Assembly: GCF_004362975.1 (NCBI RefSeq)
Contig: NZ_SNXO01000001.1
Location: 1 to 64,000, forward strand
Reading direction: 5' to 3'
Source of the DNA: Aminicella lysinilytica
Lineage (GTDB): Bacteria; Bacillota; Clostridia; Peptostreptococcales; Anaerovoracaceae
Length of the DNA stretch: 64,000 nt
The translations under genes were made by a program, and so were the position numbers. This document shows, piece by piece, positions 38,625-63,641 of this stretch (its first letter is position 1; each line of letters begins with the position of its first letter). A model generated the notes under the pieces. The model made no database searches. It saw only the letters and a program-made list of their open reading frames with translations, and had not been told where the DNA came from.

Positions 38625-39174
38625 AGCAATAAGTTATTAGTAAGAAACTAAGCAACCAAGGCGGAAGGGGCGAAAGCCAGGTCTCCAGTCCCATTGAAGC
38701 AGTTGCATTTGGGCTCCGCGCACGTATTGGTCAAATATCCAAGATGATGGTGCGTATTTTTATTTATTGTAAACCAAATCCGCACTTATTGACTGAATCT
38801 AAGAGGCCAAGGTGCGCAGCGCTAGGATTGATTGGTATAAATAGAAATAAATGGAAGGAACTGGGGAGAGGAAATGCACTCTTTGTCTTCTGAAATGGCT
38901 AATAAGTGCGCAGTAAATCGTTGGAACACCAATATCCGCACCTCCATGCTCTGAGAATCACTGATAAGTGCGGAAACCATATTTGGAACCCACCTTAACG
39001 CACCTTGATCCCTTAATAAGAGGCTATACGTGCGAGTCGCACGTATAGAACCAAATAGCAGATAAAAGGTGCGGACAACGTGTCTAGGATTATGGGTACA
39101 TACCATTATGGGGACCTACCATAATAGCAATAAGTTATCAGTAATAAACCAAGCAACCAGGGCGGAAGGGGCGA
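38625..39174. repeat. 49-bp direct repeats bounding a repeat-rich spacer
   Basis: 38625-38673 and 39126-39174 match at 45 of 49 bases and both contain GCAACCA and GGCGGAAGGGGCGA. They enclose a 450-bp non-coding segment holding the CGCAC/GTGCG array. This looks like a duplicated or inserted unit. No gene is supported between 38542 and 39204. Confidence 0.75.
38719..39073. repeat. array of CGCAC/GTGCG sites in a 31-bp register
   Basis: Cores occur at 38719 (CGCAC), 38750 (GTGCG), 38781 (CGCAC), 38812 (GTGCG), 38906 (GTGCG), 38937 (CGCAC), 38969 (GTGCG), 38999 (CGCAC), 39030 (GTGCG), 39038 (CGCAC) and 39069 (GTGCG). Most neighbours are 30-32 bp apart; the 38812-38906 gap is three periods. Units CGCAC-N26-GTGCG share inner ATTGG and CCAA words and occur in both orientations. 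The pair at 39030-39042 lies within a 25-bp palindrome. Function unknown. Confidence 0.7.
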
Positions 39175-46730: not shown

Positions 46731-46954
46731 TTCTACTTTTGCGGGTCAAAATACTTGAGAAGTAGAAAAAGTTATAGACAGAAGCACTACATACAGCCAT
46801 TGCTGCAATGTGGTGCTCTCTTTTTTCTACTAGAAACAAAGAAACATGTTGAAAAGTAGAAATTAGGGTACTTTTCTGATTAAGTTTTGTCAGGTTGACA
46901 ATATAAAACTCAGATTTTTCTACTGGATGCGGAAAACAGTGCTTAAAAGTAGAA
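46731..46954. repeat. array of TTCTAC/GTAGAA sites in a 31-bp register
   Basis: Six cores: TTCTAC at 46731, 46825 and 46918, each followed 31 bp later by GTAGAA at 46762, 46856 and 46949 (always 25 bases between). The pairs are separated by 56-57 bases, about two periods. The segments from GTAGAA to the next TTCTAC fold into long imperfect hairpins with palindromic centres (ATTGCTGCAAT at 46799; TTGTCA...TGACAA near 46886-46900). The region after the array up to 47134 shows no gene. Confidence 0.72.
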
Positions 46955-47134
46955 AAAATGAAAAGTGATGGTTGTGTGAAGAAAAAAATGATTAATAAAC
47001 TCATCCGACTATAAGCAAGTAATTTATCGATTTGTCGTGGTGACGCATTATTAGTGGCATGCACACTAAATATCGGCTGAATTGTCCATAAAGTTGTGTA
47101 GCGCAACAATTTAACAAATCGTGAGAAAGCTCCA

Positions 47135-59676: not shown

Positions 59677-61042
59677 CAATCAGAACACAGTGACCATCGA
59701 CAACAGAACGTTGCTTGATAAACTGGTGAAAATTGCAATACCGATAGCGATCCAGGGGGTGGTTTCAGCCACCCTCGGTTTAGTTGATAACTTAATGGTA
59801 GGGTTCCTTGGAGAAGCCGAGCTGGCAGCCGTAGGCATAGCCACCCAGGTGTACTTCATACACTATCTTTTTTTATTTGGATTCAACAGCGGCACTGCCA
59901 CATTCATGGCTCAGTTTTACGGAAACGGCGATAAGAAGAATATAAGGAAGGTCCTGGGATTCGATATGGCGGTGGCCCTCTGCATCGGCACACTGTTCTT
60001 CATAGTGTCATTTTTCTTTACTGATCAGATACTTCATATATATACTGATGATTCGGTCATAATCGCCATGGCCAGACCCTACGTCAAAATAGGCACTGTG
60101 ACATATTTCTTCCTGGCTGTGTCAGCACCGCTGGAGACTGCTTTCAAATCCACACAGCAGACCAAGGTGCCTATGATCATAAGCGCAGTGGTTTTCAGCA
60201 CTAATACCTTTCTGAATTATGTTTTCATTTTCGGCAAATTCGGCGCTCCGGCTATGGGCATCAGCGGCGCGGCTCTGGCAACCTGCATCGCCAGATGCGC
60301 AGAGATGGTCATCAGTATGATAGTGGCCAACAGAGGTAATTACGGCCTGGACGGAAAGCTGAAGGATTTCCTGGGATGGGACAGAGAACTCATAGTCAGA
60401 GTTGTTAAGAACGCTCTGCCTACCACAGGAAACGAGCTCTTCTGGAGCATCGGCACTTCTATGTATGTGGCGGCCTTTGCCAGGATAGGTACTACGGCCT
60501 ATGCGTCCTATCAGGCGGCGGCTACCATCAATAACATTTTTTCATTTGCGGCCTTCAGCGTCGGCGACGCCACGCTGATCCTGGTCGGCGCCAAACTGGG
60601 TGAGGGGAAAAAAGACTATGCTTACGCTCTGGCCAAGAAGATGCTGAAGATCGGCACTTTGTTCGGCGTCCTGTGCGGTCTCGTAGTAATTGCGGCGGCG
60701 TGGCCCCTGGTAAACCTCTTTGCTCTGACTGCTCTGGGCAAGATCTACGCTTTCAGGATACTGGTAGTCTATGGCCTGACTATGGGCCTGAATCTCTTCG
60801 CCGGGATCAATATCACCGGTGTTCTGCGAGGAGGCGGAGACACCCGATACGCCATGTTCACCGAAGTGGGATGCATCTGGTCAGTGGCCGTGCCCCTGGC
60901 CTTCGCCGCATCACTGTGGTGGCATCTGCCGATTTATATGGCTGTCCTCTGCGTCAGAGGCAACGACCTGGTGGAGAGCATCATACTCTATCATAGATTC
61001 AAATCTAAGAAATGGATGAATACGGTCATAACCGGACTGTAA
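59666..61042 (+). CDS. MATE-family efflux transporter
   Basis: A multidrug and toxic compound exporter of 458 residues with 12 helices in two halves. N-terminal IAIPIAIQGVVSATLGLVDN and LGEAELAAVGIATQ, and GRNELFWSIGTSMYVAAFAR-like and SFAAFSVGDATLILVGAKLG segments match the family (the former reads TGNELFWSIG). Cation-coupled export is expected; the substrate is unknown. It overlaps the tagO-like gene by 11 nt. It is the last plus-strand gene before the repeat array. Confidence 0.88.
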   Translation: MGINNQNTVTIDNRTLLDKLVKIAIPIAIQGVVSATLGLVDNLMVGFLGEAELAAVGIATQVYFIHYLFLFGFNSGTATFMAQFYGNGDKKNIRKVLGFDMAVALCIGTLFFIVSFFFTDQILHIYTDDSVIIAMARPYVKIGTVTYFFLAVSAPLETAFKSTQQTKVPMIISAVVFSTNTFLNYVFIFGKFGAPAMGISGAALATCIARCAEMVISMIVANRGNYGLDGKLKDFLGWDRELIVRVVKNALPTTGNELFWSIGTSMYVAAFARIGTTAYASYQAAATINNIFSFAAFSVGDATLILVGAKLGEGKKDYAYALAKKMLKIGTLFGVLCGLVVIAAAWPLVNLFALTALGKIYAFRILVVYGLTMGLNLFAGINITGVLRGGGDTRYAMFTEVGCIWSVAVPLAFAASLWWHLPIYMAVLCVRGNDLVESIILYHRFKSKKWMNTVITGL

Positions 61043-61101: not shown

Positions 61102-61602
61102 CGCCACATCATAACTGGAAAATCAACGATTCTTGCACGGGCCGGGCCGCAGGACGTCGGCCGCAAGAATTGCTTTGAAATGATTGCCATTGTGGCACTA
61201 TCCTTTTTCGAAATCAATGAAACGCAAGAATCGGCCTGATAATTGGACTGATGTGGCGGATATCAGATTTCATAACAGGATCCGTGCAAGAATCAGCCAA
61301 ATAATTGATCCATTGTGGCGGCCACCGGCCTCAACGGCAGCGTTTCCAATGGCTACGCGCCACATTACTTATGTAATTTCCTTGATTCTTGCGTGAGGCT
61401 CCCTAATATTTTGGTGAGACGCCACAGTGCCTTCAATAATCCGAGGATTCTTGCACGCAAGCCCGTCACCTTGATTTGATACGCCACATTGCAATAAAAA
61501 AGACAGTGATTCTTGCAGGCAGGCTGGTGAGCAATTCCATCGACCGATTCTTGCACGGACCGGGCCGCAGGCTGGTGAGCAATTCCATCGACCAATTCTT
61601 GC
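61102..61602. repeat. array of CGCCACA-N19-GATTCTTGC units with 62-bp period
   Basis: Seven units of 35 bp have exactly 19 bases between CGCCACA and GATTCTTGC (or its AATTCTTGC variant). Units at 61102-61136, 61358-61392, 61420-61454 and 61482-61516 are in + orientation; 61163-61197, 61224-61258 and 61286-61320 are in - orientation. Same-strand neighbours are 61-62 bp apart. The 19-base cores vary but several contain CAATTAT or CAATAAT. Two partial copies (GATTCTTGC at 61546, AATTCTTGC at 61594) follow a duplicated 27-bp sequence. There is no gene in 61043-61616. Confidence 0.8.
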
Positions 61603-61616
61603 AGCCCAACGCCAGC

Positions 61617-63641
61617 TTATACAAACAGGCTTCCGATATGATAGATTATAAATGCTACGATCCAGGCAACGCCGGTTTGGAAGAGAACTGTCGAGAAGGC
61701 GTATTTCCAGCCACCCATTTCTCTTCTGACTGTAGCCAGCGTAGCTACGCACGGCATGTACAGCAGACAGAATGTCAGGAAACAGTAAGCCGACAGAGGC
61801 GTGAACATCTGAGACAACATCTGCGCCAGAGTCAGGCCGCTTGTAGCCTTTGTTAAAACGGCCATAGTACTCACCACGGCTTCCTTTGCCGAGAGACCTG
61901 TGATCAGCGCCGTCGCCGCCCGCCAGTCGCCGAAGCCCAGAGGCTCGAACACAGGCGACACGAACTTGCCGATAGCGGCCAGCATACTGTGGCTCGGATC
62001 GGACACCATAGTCAGGCCCGGACTGAAACTCTGCAGGAACCAGATGACGATAGTCGCGACGAATATTACCGTGAAAGCCTTTTTGATGAAGCCCTTCACG
62101 TTTTCCCAAACACGCAGGGCCACGCTTTTGGCCGCCGGGATCCTGTATGGCGGCAGCACCATTACGAACGGTACCGGATCGCCTTGGAACAGGGTTTTGT
62201 TAAATATCAAAGCGCAGATTATGGACACCAGTATGCCCGTAATGTACAGGCCGGCCATGACCAGGGTGCCGTTTGTCGGGAAAAACGCGGCGGTTATCAT
62301 AGCGTACAAAGGCAGCTTGGCGCTGCATGACATGAATGGTATCAGGGTTATGGTCAAGTGACGGTCGCGCTTGCTGGGCAGGGATCTGGTGGCCATGATG
62401 GCAGGCACGGAACAGCCGAAACCGATGAGCATAGGCACCAGAGAACGGCCTGACAGACCGATTTTCTCTAGGAGTTTATCCATAACGAAAGCTACTCGCG
62501 GCATGTATCCACTGTCTTCCAGAATGGACAGGCAGAAGAACAGAACAGCAATTATGGGCAGGAAGGAAATGACGCTTCCGACTCCTGCACAGACGCCGTT
62601 GATCACCAGAGAGTAGACCTCTGTGGAGGCTCCGGCAGACAGCAGACCATTGCCGATCTGTTTGATGACCCAGTCGACGCCAACGGACAGCCAGTCTGAC
62701 AGCAAGCTTCCCAGGCTGCCGAAGGTCAGCCAGAAAATGAAGACCATTATGCACAGAAAAATTGGGATCGCAAATATACGATTCGTCAGTATTTTGTCTA
62801 TTTTAATGGCCCGGTCGTGTTGTATCGTAGTGGTGATTTCCTTGGTCACGACTTCCTTGCATACATCTTCCACGAAGGCGTAGCGCATATCGGCCATGGC
62901 CGCTTCTCTGTCCGTGTCCATGTGGTGCTCCATGTCTTTGATGATGTCGCGGATGATAGCACTGTCGCCGTCGTCCAGGGAAAGCTGCCTGATGACGGGC
63001 TTGTCGCCTTCGACGATCTTGGTAGCACAAAACCTGACGGGCAGGCCGATCTCTCTGGCCGGCTCTTCTATTATATGGCTTATGGAGTGGATGGCCGTGT
63101 GTACGTGGCCTTTACAAAAATCTATATTGGTAGGTACCTGATGTTTGTCTGCTGCCTCGATGGCGTAGTGTATCAGGTCGTGAATGCCCCTGTTCTTGGA
63201 GGCGGATATAGGAAGGACCGGGATCGTAAGGATCTCGGAAAGTTTGTTCATGTCGATTTCTATGTCGTTGCTGTAGACCTCGTCCATCATATTCAGGGCC
63301 AGCACCATAGGTATCTCCAGTTCCATAAGCTGAAGCGTAAGGTACAGATTTCTTTCGAAATTGGTGGCGTCTACTATATTGATGATGACATCGGGTTTGC
63401 CCTCCAGAAGTATCTGTCTGTTGGCCATATCGTCTACGGTGTATTCGGACAGGGAGTACATTCCCGGAAGTTCGATGACGTTGGCTCCGTTATGGCCCTT
63501 GACGGGGCCTTCTTTGGTCTTGTTTCCGGGCGTCGAGAATACGCCCTGATGCTGCAGTCCGCCTGTCATCTGGTTGTAGAGGGTCGTTAGTCCCGAATTG
63601 GGATTGCCGGCCAGAGCGATATTCACATTGAATCTGGCCAT
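61617..63641 (-). CDS. feoB: FeoB-family ferrous iron transporter with altered G1 motif
   Basis: A 674-residue inner-membrane Fe(II) transporter: an N-terminal GTPase domain (1-165), a helical GDI-like region and a membrane domain with two gate repeats and the C-terminal GLSAKEAVVSTMAVL motif. The P-loop reads GNPNSGLTT; the usual catalytic lysine (GNPNSGKTT) is leucine, encoded by CTA. G3 is ELPG rather than DLPG, and G4 NMMD is intact. GTP binding may thus be weakened or act in another way. It overlaps feoA by 1 nt and is the second gene of the operon. Confidence 0.9.
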   Translation of the reverse strand: MARFNVNIALAGNPNSGLTTLYNQMTGGLQHQGVFSTPGNKTKEGPVKGHNGANVIELPGMYSLSEYTVDDMANRQILLEGKPDVIINIVDATNFERNLYLTLQLMELEIPMVLALNMMDEVYSNDIEIDMNKLSEILTIPVLPISASKNRGIHDLIHYAIEAADKHQVPTNIDFCKGHVHTAIHSISHIIEEPAREIGLPVRFCATKIVEGDKPVIRQLSLDDGDSAIIRDIIKDMEHHMDTDREAAMADMRYAFVEDVCKEVVTKEITTTIQHDRAIKIDKILTNRIFAIPIFLCIMVFIFWLTFGSLGSLLSDWLSVGVDWVIKQIGNGLLSAGASTEVYSLVINGVCAGVGSVISFLPIIAVLFFCLSILEDSGYMPRVAFVMDKLLEKIGLSGRSLVPMLIGFGCSVPAIMATRSLPSKRDRHLTITLIPFMSCSAKLPLYAMITAAFFPTNGTLVMAGLYITGILVSIICALIFNKTLFQGDPVPFVMVLPPYRIPAAKSVALRVWENVKGFIKKAFTVIFVATIVIWFLQSFSPGLTMVSDPSHSMLAAIGKFVSPVFEPLGFGDWRAATALITGLSAKEAVVSTMAVLTKATSGLTLAQMLSQMFTPLSAYCFLTFCLLYMPCVATLATVRREMGGWKYAFSTVLFQTGVAWIVAFIIYHIGSLFV

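Follow-up and report, generated by a model that had tools for sequence, protein, structure and literature searches.

A mirror-symmetric intergenic array of two-word units in Aminicella lysinilytica: a candidate platform for a putative oligomeric DNA-binding protein

For interspersed bacterial repeats such as the STAR elements, published descriptions have given neither a reader nor a function. The STAR elements of staphylococci carry a 14-bp word separated by spacers of 40–44 bp at the gapR locus (PMC3532100). They are intergenic and species-enriched, their spacers keep the identity of the locus, and both their mechanism of spread and their function are unknown (PMC3532100). Our literature search found nothing closer than STAR, BIME, BOX and BrickBuilt to the array described here, which lies in a window of 64,000 nucleotides (positions 1 to 64,000 of contig NZ_SNXO01000001.1, assembly GCF_004362975.1) of A. 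lysinilytica. We hold with moderate confidence that this array represents an intergenic element of about 355 bp, interspersed and species-specific, that would serve as a platform for a putative oligomeric double-strand DNA-binding protein.

A preliminary description of the window, made from its letters, reported seven units with two fixed words, an exact 19-base gap and the strand order + - - - + + +, and all of these properties were recovered at the same place. Seven units of the form CGCCACA-N19-GATTCTTGC lie in that order at 61102–61516, with a gap of exactly 19 bp in 7/7 units and exact words in six of them; the unit at 61163–61197 has two mismatches (TGCCACA, AATTCTTGC). The start-to-start distances between same-strand units are 61, 62, 62 and 62 bp, which bears out the 61–62 bp period first noticed. 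None of 100 shuffled sequences reached seven matches when up to three mismatches were allowed (mean 0.56). The span originally proposed for the array, 61102–61602, stands as far as 61516, where the units end, and the remainder consists of repeats without CGCCACA. Two RATTCTTGC words at 61546–61554 and 61594–61602 close these 48-bp-spaced repeats, and the proposed end at 61602 therefore takes in non-unit material. The window copy has an extra outer plus unit on its left, beyond the standard layout of three minus and three plus units (3+3), and a single 26-bp linker, which it has in common with locus L032. On one side lies a MATE-like transporter gene ending at 61042, and on the other a convergent feoB-like gene has its stop at 61617; both names were read from the translations. 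The features are as follows.

61102 to 61136, plus strand: extra outer unit CGCCACA-N19-GATTCTTGC, outside the 3+3 layout; core nearest to a +3 unit elsewhere (11/19)
61163 to 61197, minus strand: unit -3, with two word mismatches
61224 to 61258, minus strand: unit -2
61286 to 61320, minus strand: unit -1
61321 to 61357, no strand: mirror centre of 37 bp, equal in length in every two-sided array
61358 to 61392, plus strand: unit +1
61420 to 61454, plus strand: unit +2
61482 to 61516, plus strand: unit +3
61163 to 61516: complete family-1 element (3+3, 354 bp); homology to other copies stops a few bp from its limits
61519 to 61603, plus strand: two 48-bp-spaced, RATTCTTGC-ended repeats that lack CGCCACA and lie after the element, before the stop of feoB

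The preliminary description had proposed searching the genome for the two-word pattern. Across the 2.29 Mb assembly (91 contigs), 71 units were found with at most two mismatches, against 0 for a reversed control pattern, and the window array is one copy among them. Most units of this family, which we call family 1, make up about 12 arrays between genes, and a few stand alone. Eight full arrays follow one plan: three minus units, a 37-bp centre and three plus units, with 27-bp linkers, a 62-bp pitch, a total length of 354–355 bp and the GATTCTTGC word pointing outward. Shorter arrays hold the same register, with 3+2 units (L024), 3+1 units (L022) or 1+1 units (L021, L027). The limits are sharp, homology between copies ending within a few bp of the outermost words, and the flanks of copies are unrelated, as they are in the second family introduced below. 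A sequence-only model gave 68 clear family-1 units (E ≤ 0.0004), followed by five weaker matches (E 0.02–0.6); because there are only five of these, and two are units of known arrays, decayed relics appear to be very few.

Several arrays belong to a mosaic of nested intergenic repeats, in which an outer repeat that starts with GGGTATTGTTCCATCAATGGTAC and ends near GCTTGGAGAACATTTTGGTGTTC sometimes encloses an array and sometimes does not (L054:11240-11550, L208:790-1110, L021, L027, L028 and L034). Solitary family-1 units in L023, L031 and L038 end another repeat (CTGTCGGGCAATTGGC...), and the core of the one in L031 is a perfect palindrome. The contigs C2, C3, C4, C6, C8 and C12 (about 520 kb) hold no family-1 unit and no listed unit of the second family, when about eleven arrays would be expected under an even spread on these six, which are among the longest contigs, a shortfall that contig-length bias may partly explain. 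Marker motifs for placing the array-poor contigs relative to the replication origin were sought, and none was found.

We compared the eight full family-1 arrays in register, pair by pair, to separate what is kept from what varies. The mean pairwise difference per site was 0.079 in the outer words and 0.029 in the inner words, against 0.470 in the cores, 0.505 in the linkers and 0.512 in the centre. Since every position predicted by the register in full arrays holds a unit, the low difference of the words is not a mere artefact of the search. The alignments contain two gap characters in 2840, which represent one shared 1-bp deletion. Neutral intergenic DNA at half a difference per site should carry many indels, and their near-absence here means that the lengths of the gaps are kept as well as the words, although the lack of indels could partly stem from copying that favours intact templates. 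Words and gap lengths are under constraint and the filler is not. The wide variation of spacing at other loci that had been named beforehand as evidence against the pattern was looked for and not seen. Cores within an array share 7.5 of 19 positions, compared with 7.3 of 19 for different arrays at different positions; as cores are no more alike within an array, concerted (gene) conversion does not explain the constant words. For 40 of the 48 cores, the best match in another array lies at the same position (chance about 8), which indicates that each array is passed on as a unit.

When we scanned the genome for further words that cluster, a second family emerged, CGCACC-N21-ATAMGTGC, with 153 units at no more than one mismatch (control 0) and more than 30 loci; at 59 places, two units fit at exactly 62 bp. 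Both families have a 35-bp unit, a 27-bp linker and a 62-bp pitch. The family-2 order is two minus units, a 93-bp step, three plus units and a closing minus unit, over about 359 bp, and 21 full copies align with almost no gaps. One of these loci is in the window, its units spanning 38720–39074, and has the following features.

38717 to 39075: complete family-2 element (359 bp), one of the 21 full copies aligned
38720 to 38754, minus strand: family-2 unit
38782 to 38816, minus strand: family-2 unit
38875 to 38909, plus strand: family-2 unit with the variant inner word TGCACT
38937 to 38971, plus strand: family-2 unit
38999 to 39033, plus strand: family-2 unit
39039 to 39073, minus strand: family-2 unit that closes the array

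The step across the centre is 93 bp in family 2 versus 72 bp in family 1, and one family-2 unit is reversed; for these reasons the exact layout is not universal. Because family 2 keeps the unit and the pitch with other words, the geometry looks like the property of a protein family and the words like its specificity. The elements GCA....AT and G..GCG occupy the same places in the units of both families, a sequence likeness that suggests related readers for the two. The constraint is unusually explicit, with kept bases and kept distances visible from one genome, in two word sets and one geometry.

Both families are lineage-restricted: beyond chance-like single matches, neither was found in the relatives searched. 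The placement in the family Anaerovoracaceae fits the named relatives of the feoB-like gene, among which is Anaerovorax odorimutans. In 16 further genomes from the genus there is no trace of family 1, and elsewhere in the family Anaerovoracaceae twelve genomes have one or two single, chance-like matches and nothing more; a model search of 61 genomes placed it in this genome only. Family 2 gave single matches at chance level in the genus, and its two-unit pattern occurs in 0 of 98 other genomes of the Anaerovoracaceae. The two-unit family-1 pattern has no match among the 84,980 species of GTDB 220, from which its own genome may be absent, or in viral contigs. A phage or plasmid origin was considered and rejected, blastn giving no match of the window array in phages and none of the L028 array in plasmids.

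Other arrays of words were noticed during these searches. At 46760–46957 of the window, a third word array repeats AGTAGAAA in alternating orientation with steps of 63, 31, 62 and 31 bp, and at L067:7131-7390 the word GGACACGA alternates with steps of 60 and 33 bp beside a solitary family-1 unit. We also looked for pitch-locked arrays of any kind in three relatives within the genus, taking 400 kb from each, and found a palindromic type in the relative G005 and ordinary tandem repeats. In G005 (L224-L230), TTCCTTC-N23-GAAGGAA occurs at 13 sites, each a palindrome (26 matches over both strands, 0 for the control), where ATTCTGAAGGAA-N13-TTCCTTCAGAAT can form stems; the genome contains Y1 transposases, and the sites look REP-like. 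Their mostly 50-bp pitch counts against a universal 62-bp geometry.

The arrays are also neighbours and hosts of insertion sequences. At L231:1340-2725 there is an IS256-type transposase gene (PF00872) that is intact, has GTGTAAATTCA ends and apparently duplicated 8 bp where it inserted, beside words of the third kind (AGTAGAAA / TTTCTACT). At L036:279-806, a family-2 array is contained within an IS256-type non-autonomous element with GTGTAAATTTCA-like ends, which itself interrupts the 37-bp centre of a family-1 array, with 8 bp, CACTTCTG, perfectly duplicated. In L215, L218, L219, L220, L209, L212 and L026, family-2 arrays adjoin, close to their first plus unit, the ends of one or two elements of IS256 type, and many of these junctions fall at the end of a contig. 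These insertion sequences seem to favour the arrays as targets. An IS256-type parent for the arrays looks unlikely, since the one transposase of this type that was found is part of an element whose ends are of the GTGTAAATTCA type and which inserts into them.

We now consider what the family-1 design may do. The preliminary description had offered paired binding sites of a multimeric protein as one reading, and it is the best-supported one in that words are conserved, gaps fixed and fillers free; the protein that reads the words, and its oligomerisation, are what we infer. The element would be a two-fold symmetric platform of six bipartite recognition sites, three per arm, around a fixed 37-bp centre. 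Each site would combine an inner word, CGCCACA, with an outer word, GATTCTTGC, about 27 bp apart between word centres, and the bases between the words would act as spacers. By arithmetic, the 62-bp pitch is about six helical turns, which would put the sites of each arm on one face of the helix. Most likely, such a platform would bring together, in one defined nucleoprotein complex, several protomers of a protein that binds double-strand DNA sequence-specifically and oligomerises. This complex may serve the host, through chromosome organisation or a 3'-end or insulation role, or it may serve the element's own spread. Extended to both families, the idea becomes more speculative, and we think it rather unlikely that at least two parallel pitch-locked families, read by paralogous proteins at about fifty nucleoprotein nodes per chromosome, form an undescribed chromosome-organising or selfish system whose geometry is conserved and whose specificity is swapped between lineages. 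The array is a ready bait, with word mutants and gap shifts of 5 versus 10 bp, for the reader protein and for the choice between host function and selfish spread.

The gene setting of the arrays bears on a reading in which they act as structured RNA or foldback DNA of the BIME, REP or BOX kind, the hairpin between minus and plus units serving as a terminator or a stabiliser of mRNA 3' ends. With genes called crudely by a simple codon score, and with background gaps taken from one part of the genome, 14 of 31 arrays of both families lie between convergent genes, 15 between tandem and 2 between divergent genes, compared with 27, 79 and 30 of 136 background intergenic gaps; the convergent excess (Fisher p = 0.005) and the divergent lack (p = 0.047) would both suit a function at 3' ends. 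Overlap with a called gene occurs for one array only, with a borderline score. The mirror words are able to pair, and the window copy, folded as a single strand, scores better than its shuffled versions (z = -4.1 and -3.7), as would any sequence with inverted words. However, the complementarity of mirrored cores is lower within an array (0.48) than between arrays (0.54), the covariation term is near zero in both families, and pairing inside the unit core, tried in eleven registers, does not exceed z = 2.2; nor are the two words mutual complements. With no covariation and no clear pairing within units beyond shuffles, the words appear to be conserved as sequence. Pairing also leaves the same-strand spacing unexplained. 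Eleven array loci other than the window copy gave no match to an Rfam family, apart from a nearby tRNA, and the genome has no Y1 (PF01797) transposase by a search that returned matches in control genomes. We judge a fold to be an improbable explanation.

A possible but doubtful alternative is that the arrays are non-autonomous, MITE-like transposable elements, whose six words would be transposase sites of both ends and whose constraint would come from mobilisation in trans. Unrelated flanks and sharp limits in both families speak for this, as do terminal inverted repeats with the outermost word facing outward, an intergenic position, truncated copies and occurrence in one genome only among those searched. 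Against it, we found no target-site duplication, the longest flanking direct repeats equalling those of shuffled pairs in both families; inner units are conserved as much as terminal ones; ORF lists read by eye show no transposase gene adjoining family-1 arrays; and the sole transposase of IS256 type that was found differs in its ends and uses arrays as insertion sites. The MITE-like and binding-platform readings can both be true. The preliminary description had also likened the array to recombination cassettes; in this reading the cassettes would be invertible or exchangeable and cross over at GATTCTTGC. The loci L021 and L034 have both flanks in common yet hold 1+1 and 3+3 units with junctions at ATTCTTGC words, and in L026 the +3 core resembles +1 cores; the first change, however, is what ordinary recombination between short repeated words would produce. 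Within this one genome, the order and orientation of units do not change from one full locus to another, and the strand flips are therefore a fixed mirror design and not inversions. With cores that are also position-specific, we consider cassettes very unlikely, and the ORFs around the arrays, as read by eye, bear out the earlier remark that there is no adjacent recombinase gene. A decayed ordinary minisatellite is hardly credible: units do run head-to-tail on each arm, but cores resemble each other no more within than between arrays, near-invariant words stand next to positions that differ at about half of sites, and one layout recurs at many loci. The initial judgement that the array is unlike an ordinary minisatellite was sound, since free cores, near-invariant words and the repeated layout rule one out.

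The candidate binding platform can be placed among known systems by what it has in common with each. The transposon ends of Tn7 and Mu carry several protein sites per end, and both ends are needed; here, no cargo, transposase or target-site duplication was found, and the sites are evenly pitched. A CRISPR array differs in that the present units take opposite orientations and spacers are shared by position between loci. BIMEs and REPs with RAYT transposases likewise have regularly spaced units of opposite orientation in many extragenic copies (PMC2817692, PMC3116915), whereas the units here are not palindromic and show no covariation, and the Y1 transposase is absent from this genome. The BOX elements of pneumococcus are small interspersed repeats nearly confined to one species, as the present families are (PMC3049150). 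They have a boxA-boxB(n)-boxC structure with extensive secondary structure and are not known to have a mirror design of locked words and gaps. BrickBuilt, a MITE of Porphyromonas gingivalis, is a species-specific intergenic element with an internal repeat array and 19 copies, but, unlike family 1, it consists of a spacer-free minisatellite of 23-bp repeats framed by a leader and a tail end (PMC4596501). STAR is the nearest described kind, defined by a short conserved word, a variable spacer of near-constant length, an intergenic position and lineage specificity, all of which are found here. However, STAR has one word, direct repeats and a variable copy number, where the present element has two words per unit, a mirror 3+3 arrangement and exact gaps. 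None of STAR, BIME, BOX and BrickBuilt combines a two-word unit with gaps that are locked and a mirror plan that is fixed. The family-1 element works like STAR, yet it is not a member, for its words and layout differ.
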